Under the pieces are notes generated by a model, which was not told the DNA's origin, did not search any database, and was given only the letters and a program-made list of their open reading frames with translations. This document shows, one piece after another, positions 1,933-13,475 of a stretch of 28,485 bases of DNA. The first letter of the stretch is position 1. Every line of letters begins with the position of its first letter. Made by a program: the position numbers and the translations under genes. The stretch lies in IMG/VR virus record IMGVR_UViG_3300032163_000080, positions 1-28,485 of that record, one strand, 5' to 3'. Source of the DNA: a virus.

Positions 1933-2798
1933 TAGAATAATTTACTCATTATAGCTTCTATTACATTGACTGTGACAGCGTTGCCACAGCATTTATATCT
2001 TTGGGTATCACTTACTCCTGCCGTCCAATTATCTGGGAATCCCTGCAAGCGTTCGCATTCAAGCGGAGTCAATCGTCTGATTCTAAGATTTGCGGTATGT
2101 GCCTGCCCCCCCCTGCTGTCGGTATTGTCGGACTCAATCCTTTCTTGTGGTAAACCCTGTTCGCCTGATTCTGGTTCTTCACTAACGATATAAGGGTCTG
2201 ACTGTCCTTGTTTATAGTACCGCTGCGTAATTGTGGGGGAAACTTGCCCCTGTCGTTCAGTAGAAAGTTCACCATTTTCTCCGAAAGGAAATACTTCGGG
2301 TCTACTTGTGCCTCTAAGATGTCCGACAATGAACACTCTTTCCCGATTCTGGGGGACTCCGAAATTCTTGCTGTTAAGCACTTGCCATTGGACGTCATAC
2401 CCCAGTTCATCAAGCGTGGAGATGATGGTTTTGAAAGTCTGCCCGTTGTCGTGAGAGAGAAGTCCTTTAACATTTTCAAGGCAGAATAATCTAGGTTTTT
2501 TAACTCGCAGTATTCTCGCAATGTCAAAAAAGAGCGTCCCTCTGGTATCTTCAAAGCCTCCCCTTTTACCTGCGATGGAAAAAGATTGGCAGGGGAATCC
2601 TCCAACGAGCAAATCAAAGTCTGGTAAAGTTCGTTCGTCAATTTTTGTGATGTCTCCATAGTTTTTGTGATCTGGGAAGTGTTTTTCATAGATTTTTGTG
2701 GCATAGCGGTCTACTTCCGAGAATCCAATGCACTCTCCTTTTCCCCCGATTCCCAAAGTAAATCCTCCAATACCTGAAAAAAGGTCTAAATATTTCAT
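1932..2798 (-). CDS. Orphan C5-cytosine DNA methyltransferase
   Basis: Transfers a methyl group from SAM to C5 of cytosine in DNA. 288 aa, a complete compact C5-MTase: motif I DLFSGIGGF (res 5-13), catalytic GGFPCQSFS with Cys70 (motif IV), ENV at 108-110 (motif VI), QNRERVF at 150-156 (motif VIII), then the target-recognition region, RIRRLTPLECERLQGFP (motif IX) and YKCCGNAV (motif X). No cognate endonuclease is adjacent, so protection from host restriction or regulation is likely. The start overlaps the HNH stop as ATGA (2795-2798). Oddity: between about 2083 and 2165 the family-like sequence lies in the +1 frame (see findings), so part of the recognition region may be scrambled or the assembly may carry indels. 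Enzyme class is certain; specificity is unknown. Confidence 0.9.
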   Translation of the reverse strand: MKYLDLFSGIGGFTLGIGGKGECIGFSEVDRYATKIYEKHFPDHKNYGDITKIDERTLPDFDLLVGGFPCQSFSIAGKRGGFEDTRGTLFFDIARILRVKKPRLFCLENVKGLLSHDNGQTFKTIISTLDELGYDVQWQVLNSKNFGVPQNRERVFIVGHLRGTSRPEVFPFGENGELSTERQGQVSPTITQRYYKQGQSDPYIVSEEPESGEQGLPQERIESDNTDSRGGQAHTANLRIRRLTPLECERLQGFPDNWTAGVSDTQRYKCCGNAVTVNVIEAIMSKLF

Positions 2799-3202
2799 TT
2801 GATAATGTTTTTAATCTTATTGTCATATTTAGAATGACACGACTCGCACATTCGTTTATAATCTTCTACATCTGCATAATTTCCATTAAGACTAGCCCAT
2901 TGGTATCTCCTATCGTCTTTATCATAACTACATTCATCACATTTCTGTGGTTTTCCTTTTGTATTATACACCCGATAATGCAATGCTGCATAGCCAGCTT
3001 CATCCCCTTTCCAACTACTATTATTAGAACCAAATTGGTTTCTTTTCTTGGCAATACGACTTTTATAACCGGCATTTTTAAATGCTCGCCATATTACTTT
3101 TTGAGTAGTTCCTAACTTTTTAGCAACTTCAATTTGAGTTAAACCTTTTTCATAAAGTTTAATTGCATCCCCGATGCCACTAAATAATGATAAATATCTC
3201 AT
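2795..3202 (-). CDS. HNH homing-type endonuclease with a methyltransferase-like leader
   Basis: 135 aa. After an odd leader MRYLSLFSGIG, a helix-turn-helix-like segment (AIKLYEKGLTQIEVAKKLG, res 13-31) precedes the HNH module: SSWKGDEAGYAALH, a CDEC knuckle, a YQWASLNG stretch and CESCHSKYD near the C-terminus. This is the small phage HNH family that recognises DNA through the N-terminal HTH. The leader is nearly the same as the start of the downstream methyltransferase (MKYLDLFSGIG) and is not typical of HNH proteins. The gene overlaps both neighbours by ATGA. A second, divergent copy of the family lies at 26848-27219. There is no alternative in-frame Met before the HTH. Confidence 0.85.
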   Translation of the reverse strand: MRYLSLFSGIGDAIKLYEKGLTQIEVAKKLGTTQKVIWRAFKNAGYKSRIAKKRNQFGSNNSSWKGDEAGYAALHYRVYNTKGKPQKCDECSYDKDDRRYQWASLNGNYADVEDYKRMCESCHSKYDNKIKNIIK

Positions 3203-11306: not shown

Positions 11307-13475
11307 TTAATCTGTGATTATTATTTGCTGTCCATCTGGTGCTGTAATCGTTGAACTTCCACCGCCGCTAGGAAGTTTAATCGTTTGTCCTATCTTGAGA
11401 GATGTAGGACTAATTCCTGAATTAGCTGACTGTAGAGCTTCTACTGTTGTTCCATTGGCTTGAGCTAGTTTATAGAAAGTATCACCTGATTTAATAGTGT
11501 ATGAACTTCCTCCACTACTAACTGTCGGAGAAGTATATTGGGTTATCTGTCTAGCTTTACCATTATAAGCATCGTCAATTTGTCTCTGATATTCAGAGTA
11601 AACTTGATCGTAAGATTTTTGTACAGCATTAAGCGATACTTGAATAGTCTTACTCATAGCTTGCCTAGCTTCAGGGGTTAGGATTCCAGTCGCAGAAAAG
11701 ATTCTTGAGATTTTAAGTCCAGTTCTTTGTAAGAGAGCTTGAGAATACTTTTCGATAGAGTTATATTCACCTTCCTTAACAGCAGAATTTGGATCAGCTA
11801 TTTTGGCGAAGGCATATATTCTTTGAATATCGTCTGTCGCACTACTTCCTAGATTATTAAATGTATCTACCTGTTGTTTTATCGTATTGTAATTCTTTAC
11901 AGTCGGTTCATTATCAAAAGCTCCAGCAATTTGATTTACAGTAGTGTTTATTTGAGCAGGAGTTAATCCTCCAACACCAGAAGCCTTAGCTTTTCTATTG
12001 GCATCTTCATTTTGATAATCTGAGAATGAACCTGTATAACCTTGAGATTGTGCAAATTTATATTCTTCAACTGAAGCTGGCTGACTACCAACTCCAGAAA
12101 GTTGTGCAGCAAGCTTCTTAGTTTCAAGTTCAAATGTTCTATCAGACTGCATTTGATCCACAGCCATCTTTGCGATAAACTGGATTTCATTCTGTGCATC
12201 GTCTAATTGCTTGGTAGAAATTTCAATAGACTTCAATAGGTTGCCTTCCTCGGTATCATATTTACCATCTAGGTTTCCAATTTGTCTTGCTCTAGTGGAT
12301 TCACTAATCCAAGGATTGTTATTTATACTCGTAGTTTCTTCCGCTTTTTTATTCCTTAAATCTAAGAGTTGTTTGTTTGTATCTTTGATACCTTCCTTTA
12401 AAGTATCTAGCCCTAGTTCTTTAGATAGGGTTTCCATGTAATCTTGTAGAGTTTTTTCCTTTAGGTTGTCAGAATAGGCTTGTTGAGTCTCGTTTAATGG
12501 TGGTTCTCCGGTAGCAGGGTCTACCCCACCAGCAGGAGGTTCAGTACCAGTTCCATCCATACCACCCTGTACTAATTCCCTAGACTTCGGACCAAAGTAA
12601 CCATAATCTCCAGATGGTAATTGCATACCCATAGACTTTTGCCATGCCGCAACAGCCGCCGTAGTCCTTGGGCCATAGATTCCAGGACCAGTAGCCATAT
12701 CTTGTGCCGTTAAAAATCCTTTAGAGACTAAGAAGTTTTGGAGTGCAGTAACTTCACTTCCTGAACTACCAGGAGCTAGGTTAGAGTTAATGCCTAGTAT
12801 CTGACCTATTGATTGTCCGGGTGCAGTTGTTCCTGTTTGTGTAGAACTTGCTCCTGCTGGAGTTGGAGTTGGAGTTGGTGTTGGTGTTGGTGTTGGTGTT
12901 GGTGTTGGTGGAGGTGGAGGTGGAGCGATAATACCAGGTTTACTGATAACAGTACCTGCGGTTGTGTTAGTAAGAAGCTGACCTGTATAGGGATTATATT
13001 TATCTCCTGCCTTAACTGTGTAAGTTGGTTGATTTATATCAAAGACAGCAGTTGTTCCTATTGGAGTTGGAGGAGTAGTAACTGCCGGAGTAGTTCCAGG
13101 CTTATTTATAACAGTACCTGCGGTTGTGTTAGTTAGGGCTTTACCTGTATATGGGTCGTATTTATCTCCCGTCTTAACAATATAAGTTGGTTGGTTTACA
13201 TCAAAAGGAGCGACTGTAGACGTGGTAGTAGGTGTAGGAGTAGGAGAAGAAGTGGGTGTAGAAGTGGGTGTAGAAGTGGTAGTGGTTGTTGGAGTTGGTG
13301 TTGGAGTGGAAGAAGTTGAAGTGGAAGTCGTGGAAGTAGAAGGAGCTTTTGTTCCATAGTCAGTTTTACCTGATGTATCTCCATATATGACTGTTCCTAC
13401 AGGATATGAAATAGCTGATCCAGTAAAAGGACTGAACTTATCTCCTGTTTTGATTGTATATGATGTATATGCCAT
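11307..13475 (-). CDS. Virion protein with peptidoglycan-binding and LysM domains, 722 aa
   Basis: The N-terminal region has three copies of a LysM-like repeat (YTIKTGDKFSPFTG, YIVKTGDKYDPYTG, YTVKAGDKYNPYTG), separated by Thr/Ser/Pro linkers and a long Pro-Thr repeat. Residues ~230-300 match the PG_binding_1 pattern (SSGSEVTALQNFLVSKG ... YGPRTTAAVAAWQKSMG). A long helical region follows, then a true LysM near the end (YTIKSGDTFYKLAQANGTT ... LKIGQTIKLP, about 658-703). A role in penetrating or anchoring to the cell wall during ejection is likely. No catalytic domain is seen. Confidence 0.75.
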   Translation of the reverse strand: MAYTSYTIKTGDKFSPFTGSAISYPVGTVIYGDTSGKTDYGTKAPSTSTTSTSTSSTPTPTPTTTTTSTPTSTPTSSPTPTPTTTSTVAPFDVNQPTYIVKTGDKYDPYTGKALTNTTAGTVINKPGTTPAVTTPPTPIGTTAVFDINQPTYTVKAGDKYNPYTGQLLTNTTAGTVISKPGIIAPPPPPPTPTPTPTPTPTPTPTPAGASSTQTGTTAPGQSIGQILGINSNLAPGSSGSEVTALQNFLVSKGFLTAQDMATGPGIYGPRTTAAVAAWQKSMGMQLPSGDYGYFGPKSRELVQGGMDGTGTEPPAGGVDPATGEPPLNETQQAYSDNLKEKTLQDYMETLSKELGLDTLKEGIKDTNKQLLDLRNKKAEETTSINNNPWISESTRARQIGNLDGKYDTEEGNLLKSIEISTKQLDDAQNEIQFIAKMAVDQMQSDRTFELETKKLAAQLSGVGSQPASVEEYKFAQSQGYTGSFSDYQNEDANRKAKASGVGGLTPAQINTTVNQIAGAFDNEPTVKNYNTIKQQVDTFNNLGSSATDDIQRIYAFAKIADPNSAVKEGEYNSIEKYSQALLQRTGLKISRIFSATGILTPEARQAMSKTIQVSLNAVQKSYDQVYSEYQRQIDDAYNGKARQITQYTSPTVSSGGSSYTIKSGDTFYKLAQANGTTVEALQSANSGISPTSLKIGQTIKLPSGGGSSTITAPDGQQIIITD
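12860..12925 (-). repeat. Hexanucleotide repeat coding for (Pro-Thr)n and poly-Pro
   Basis: GGTGTT-type 6-nt units repeat about ten times (coding-strand Pro-Thr dipeptides) followed by a Pro run. Slippage-prone; in frame, so copy-number change only alters linker length. Confidence 0.7.
12931..13208 (-). repeat. Direct repeat of ~115 bp (162-bp spacing) in the 722-aa gene
   Basis: Copy 1 at about 12931-13046 and copy 2 at about 13093-13208. A 26-bp core (12946-12971 and 13108-13133) is identical. Both encode QPTY(T/I)VK(A/T)GDKY(N/D)PYTG ... GTVI units. A more divergent third copy lies near 13384-13460. Confidence 0.7.

Follow-up and report, generated by a model that had tools for sequence, protein, structure and literature searches.

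A phage C5-cytosine methyltransferase gene that probably encodes a second, nested polypeptide bearing the distal recognition region

The window analyzed here, 28,485 bases long, is a linear virus record that encodes, among other products, a major head protein and the large subunit of a terminase. Dual coding of its methyltransferase gene, which has many relatives with the same frame relation, is strongly supported, and the probable explanation is an M.EcoHK31I-like C5-methyltransferase of two polypeptides, one nested within the gene of the other, in which the second polypeptide bears the distal recognition region. One gene would be read in two frames to give two polypeptides: alpha, the C5-methyltransferase core with motifs I-VIII, IX and X, and beta, nested in alpha's +1 frame (Table 1). 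Beta would start at an internal ATG, overlap the catalytic region and stop where the coding of motif IX begins. The part of beta that is conserved throughout the family would correspond to the segment that single-chain enzymes carry in frame after motif VIII; in the subgroup that includes the window beta would also bear the distal recognition segment, with a disordered linker left in alpha at that place. From the sequences, association of alpha and beta into one enzyme is most likely, to which beta would contribute the target-recognition region, wholly or in part, in trans, and we infer that beta may in this way affect specificity.

Table 1. The methyltransferase gene and the features nested within it, in positions of the window.
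Feature	Position	Strand	Description or basis
Alpha, C5-cytosine methyltransferase ORF	1932-2798	minus	288 aa; motifs I-VIII and IX-X
Beta, putative nested ORF in alpha's +1 frame	2069-2659	minus	196 aa from the ATG in TATGGAGAC
Tightest dual-coded stretch	2267-2332	minus	alpha VFIVGHLRGTSRPEVFPFGENG / beta SLSDILEAQVDPKYFLSEKMVN; synonymous-site identity 0.93
C-terminal recognition-like segment of beta, NRVYHKKGLSPTIPTAGGGRHIPQ	2090-2161	minus	codon changes; alignment with SPbeta mtbP
Alpha residues 176-234, poorly conserved linker at the expected place of the recognition domain	2097-2273	minus	pLDDT <50; no counterpart of HhaI 195-264
Poly-G tract, G8 (plus-strand C8)	2106-2113	minus	direct reading; encodes GGG in beta
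TGA stop of beta; shares bases with alpha's RRLT codons (motif IX)	2069-2071	minus	direct reading

Alpha matches both PF00145 (E 2.7e-93) and TIGR00675 (5.1e-99), and it holds motifs I, IV (PCQ), VI (ENV), VIII (QNRER), IX and X in order, as invariant columns in the alignment. Motif IX, IRRLTPLECERLQGF, lies in alpha's frame. Comparison with M.HhaI (5.5e-63) leaves HhaI residues 195-264 unmatched. In the predicted structure of alpha the core has a pLDDT of mostly about 90 or more, including most of the catalytic core and motifs IX-X; residues 176-234 fall below 50 and are predicted to be disordered. In neither the predicted structure nor the M.HhaI alignment does the alpha chain show a folded domain for target recognition between motif VIII and motif IX.

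The alpha ORF translates as ...SDPYIVSEEPESGEQGLPQERIESDNTDSRGGQAHTANLRIRRLTPLECERLQG, and the +1 frame of the same DNA as NQNQANRVYHKKGLSPTIPTAGGGRHIPQILESDD followed by a stop; between SDPYIV and IRRLTP the annotated frame reads SEEPESGEQGLPQERIESDNTDSRGGQAHTANL and the +1 frame NQNQANRVYHKKGLSPTIPTAGGGRHIPQI. The first-pass annotation of this DNA had described the annotated-frame segment as unlike a methyltransferase, and its peptide indeed has no match among annotated phages. It had also described the +1 frame as recognition-like, which is borne out by matches of the +1 peptide to phage methyltransferases, where it lies in frame in all three annotated matches that were checked. When the annotated peptide was re-coded synonymously 200,000 times, a comparable +1 motif arose in just 12 cases; the +1 recognition motif is therefore not a product of chance. 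The methyltransferase-like signal of the +1 frame begins well upstream of the site originally singled out, at motif VIII (2332, ...CSLSDILEAQVDPKYFLSEKM...), within a +1 ORF that ends at 2069 and begins at 2659 or, the frame being open 5' of that position as well, at an ATG at 2704. The LSDILE..KYFLS motif found here directly follows motif VIII, where alpha's VFIVGHLRGTSRPEVFPF is CSLSDILEAQVDPKYFLSEKM in +1. Among 104 distinct relatives this motif lies in the +1 frame in 89, in alpha's frame in none and in the third frame in none, and with the +1 motif thus found from motif VIII, a displacement limited to NRVY onward was dropped.

Conservation of the +1 frame extends across the family. Of 80 non-redundant relatives, 72 keep the LSDILE..KYFLS motif in +1, against 1.17 expected under within-gene synonymous codon shuffling, and in 69 genes no +1 stop falls between codon 55 and motif VIII, against 0.39 expected; these shuffling tests take the sequences as unrelated, and the effect sizes are very large. 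Synonymous-site identity, calculated from codon pairs for the same residue, stands at approximately 0.45 for much of the gene and reaches 0.93 at the tightest overlap, with lesser rises near codons 37-57 and 117-149. When 80 further loci were fetched with a beta profile, beta was located in alpha's +1 frame by script in 78 and by eye in the other two, and coordinate arithmetic placed it in +1 in six of six annotated phage records from diverse hosts; the 6/6 records and the 78/80 loci led us to reject the beta motif as a stand-alone phage protein. Records of Roseobacter, Mycobacterium, Vibrio, Enterobacter and Acutalibacteraceae phages contain beta in +1 with no separate annotation. A consensus probe, informative through its matches only, found the motif in 345 phage and 588 plasmid records, with the frame checked in a sample only. 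As in the M.EcoHK31I type, a second ORF overlaps alpha in another frame and is under protein-level selection. Such selection acts on both frames, and in the terminal segment of the window on +1 only.

Several contigs share the window's own arrangement. L012, from another metagenome, has 73% DNA identity over 435 bases of the gene and the same frame relation, and a degenerate scan for SPTIxTxxGG.RHIP across 2.9 million viral contigs returned three contigs (that of L012, L180 and L182), all of which carry the segment in +1 within an open methyltransferase ORF. L203, L224 and L225 were added to this set later than the other three. Over the 24-codon segment, codon differences number 136 synonymous to 105 non-synonymous in +1, and 11 to 242 in the annotated frame, where the counts cover all pairs of the window, L180, L182, L203, L224 and L225 and the pairs are non-independent; the single pair L180-L182 agrees, with 14:3 in +1 vs 1:17 in the annotated frame. 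Because changes in the segment are mostly synonymous in +1 and hardly ever so in the annotated frame, selection has acted on the +1 protein there. The NRVY..SPTI..GGRHIP segment is the C-terminus of beta, and not the result of mutation or error.

These results leave little room for the origins first proposed for the segment. A compensating pair of indels would have made a new recognition loop in the annotated frame, as suggested by an annotated frame that is open throughout and has normal flanks. The recurrence of the arrangement in six other contigs, and codon differences that are synonymous in +1 and not in the annotated frame, make two such opposing indels very improbable, and the same observations are at odds with the idea of an altered recognition loop private to the window. 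A gapless homologue of the annotated frame, which the first-pass annotation had itself named as a finding that would speak against its reading, does exist, in that L180 aligns over GLPQERIESDNTDSRGG in that frame (GEQGLLEEGAVADHPDGRRGQAHTA), but its +1 frame aligns better still.

The poly-G tract lies where the first-pass annotation had placed it. Its role as the point where the frames part is ruled out by a +1 frame that continues across G8, and the tract is not the cause of the window's frame relation. A sequencing or assembly error at or near G8 is conceivable in a metagenomic-type virus contig record, and odd single-base frame changes are seen in L206, L189 and L244. That the window itself reflects such an error is hardly credible, given the unbroken +1 frame, the selection upon it, and a frame relation that recurs both in contigs of other metagenomes (L012, L180, L182, L203, L224 and L225) and in sequenced phage isolates. 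The tract varies in length between relatives (G8 in the window, G7 in L012 and L182, G9 in L206 and G10 in L189) and is interrupted in L180. In L206 beta's frame runs into motifs IX-X and alpha's frame stops; at L206:1734-1768 and L189:2045-2079 the frame of the C-terminal motifs is altered relative to the rest of the gene. As judged from L206 (G9) and L189 (G10), tract length can apparently rewire the C-terminal frames, through either real slippage or assembly error. It is tempting to extend this to a model in which recognition segments move between overlapping frames, so that specificity is given in trans, and poly-G slippage shifts C-terminal motifs from alpha to beta, switching between split architectures, although we consider this model doubtful. 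L244 offers a separate observation: in the region near 1000-2300 its frame changes by one base at motif VIII, so that alpha's frame runs into beta's motif, and the C-terminus continues from beta's frame, whether naturally or through an assembly error.

How might beta be produced? It probably initiates independently at an internal ATG within alpha's N-Y-G-D codons. Among 73 relatives, the codon that lies 112 positions upstream of the LSDILE motif is ATG 50 times and TTG three times. No +1 stop is present downstream of the putative beta start in any of the 73, and in 10 of them one stands exactly three codons before the start position. The tyrosine codon that supplies beta's ATG is preferentially TAT (34:4 vs 640:327 gene-wide, p 0.001). 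Ribosome-binding signals of the nested starts appear weak: a Shine-Dalgarno-like tetramer is found at the right distance in only 27 of 68, and there is no obvious one at the window's own beta start.

Programmed ribosomal frameshifting could instead carry ribosomes out of alpha's frame into +1 close to motif VIII and return them ahead of motif IX, yielding a single protein with the recognition region inside it. The +1 stretch does suit the place that single-chain enzymes give it between motif VIII and motif IX, and constraint on +1 is strongest from motif VIII on. However, two efficient shifts would be required, and frameshifting needs neither a +1 frame held open for about 100 codons 5' of motif VIII, as in the 69 genes above, nor a conserved start at its 5' end, which sometimes comes directly after a +1 stop. 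Moreover, the same bases code for both VFIVG and SLSD, one of which a simple shift would therefore lose. A nested ORF that has its own conserved start accounts for more of the observations than frameshifting, which we regard as unlikely.

The window's +1 ORF matches PHROG_16143 (E 1.3e-29, profile positions 6-134 of 139). This family is labelled DNA methyltransferase and appears to be the nested +1 frame, not the catalytic domain. Residues 111-193 of beta align in one piece with residues 250-330 of SPbeta mtbP (36% identity, E 5e-11), and also with vir335 (E 6e-9), and the LSDILE..VD.KYFLSEK motif stands in frame after motif VIII in the single-chain C5-methyltransferases L183, L185 and L186. 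These alignments show the C-terminal half of beta to be homologous to the recognition region of single-chain enzymes. What alpha lacks and what beta has are complementary. The extent of beta differs within the family. In most relatives it ends 11-60 codons past the LSDILE..KYFLS motif and, where the RVY..SPT segment was found, that segment is in alpha's frame, so that in those relatives it cannot come from beta. Within the subgroup of the window, beta extends through RVY..G.SPT..GG..P, and in the window it ends in bases encoding the start of alpha's motif IX.

The first 80 residues of beta are predicted to be disordered and are only mildly constrained, its predicted model is poor (pLDDT 53) except around the motif and is not used for any structural argument, sequence and fold searches of the PDB gave no match to it, and Pfam and NCBIfam contain no model that matches. 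The single-chain enzymes compared contain nothing equivalent to the N-terminal part or to the WGM..NGK..T..SES stretch. This would suit a real, separate protein with another job, for instance against host defence, in which the recognition likeness reflects origin only. Such a role is improbable to much the same degree as frameshifting: the window's subgroup has the recognition segment relocated to the frame of beta and missing from alpha, which fits a shared enzyme.

The beta polypeptide of M.EcoHK31I reportedly comes from a different frame within the coding sequence of alpha, and activity in vitro is said to need both polypeptides. M.AquI and M.EcoHK31I are natural two-polypeptide C5-methyltransferases (PMC3404938). 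In M.EcoHK31I, which recognizes YGGCCR, the larger polypeptide has most of the motifs and the smaller is reported to have motif IX (PMC3404938). The window is alike in that two polypeptides are proposed, from its sequence, to form one C5-methyltransferase. However, motif IX of the window is in alpha, and LSDILE..KYFLS and the distal recognition segment are in beta. By motif distribution the window is thus not a member of the M.EcoHK31I type, yet under this explanation it would work like one. In M.AquI (CYCGRG) the second polypeptide has the distal recognition region, and the small subunit also carries motifs IX-X (PMC3404938). The window's beta likewise has the distal recognition segment, but motifs IX-X are kept in alpha, which places the window outside the M.AquI type. 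L206 looks closer to M.AquI, as G9 puts IX-X in beta's frame along with the distal recognition segment. Among single-chain enzymes, the catalytic parts of M.HhaI are similar to alpha and the recognition region of SPbeta mtbP to the C-terminal half of beta, but both parts are read in one frame, and no conserved open +1 frame was found in the phage single-chain genes checked.

The same nested +1 ORF occurs at the same place in homologous methyltransferase genes as ORF13/ORF14 of phage MM1, as gp44/gp45 of Streptococcus thermophilus phage P0092 and in PHROG_16143. In MM1 the nested ORF is annotated "putative methyltransferase" or "C5 methyltransferase beta subunit," and gp45 of P0092 "DNA methyltransferase." The MM1 and P0092 versions of beta are 139-141 aa long and end soon past KYFLS, whereas that of the window runs about 60 residues further through the recognition-like segment. 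In ShiLan, an insertion in a phage methylase has a hidden HNH endonuclease (PMC11855218), so that there too a second protein is concealed in another frame of a phage methylase gene. However, that insertion is mobile and encodes an endonuclease, whereas beta belongs to the family and overlaps conserved motifs of the methyltransferase itself.

The surroundings of these genes hold further features. In the window an HNH-endonuclease-like ORF at 2795-3202 on the minus strand (PHROG_8446 match, 9e-13) overlaps alpha's start by four bases and opens with the methyltransferase-like MRYLSLFSGIG, as though the 5' part of a methyltransferase gene had been taken over by an endonuclease of the homing type. 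In Mycobacterium phages Dove (L198:786-1904) and Phoebus (L202:789-1905) the methyltransferase region is annotated as two ORFs with differing end points and adjoins an HNH endonuclease gene, and the beta motif is in +1 of the first ORF. Elsewhere in the window, a degenerate array of 12-base, GTTGGTGTTGGT-like repeats at 12810-13345 lies within the ORF at 11307-13475 and encodes a low-complexity stretch.

A nested beta of this kind is already known through the "beta subunit" annotation of MM1. The breadth of the family and the relocated recognition segment appear to be new; a literature search of partial coverage found no description of the nested ORF, so that the family-wide description can be called novel only provisionally. 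A second +1 protein, almost nowhere annotated, appears to be encoded in hundreds of methyltransferase genes of phages and plasmids. If beta is required or sets specificity, clones of alpha only would be inactive or mis-specified and many predicted specificities would need rechecking. As an example of long genes that overlap on the same strand in prokaryotic viruses, the family is also unusually deep and statistically clean, and the subgroup that includes the window suggests that a functional segment can pass from one frame to the other.
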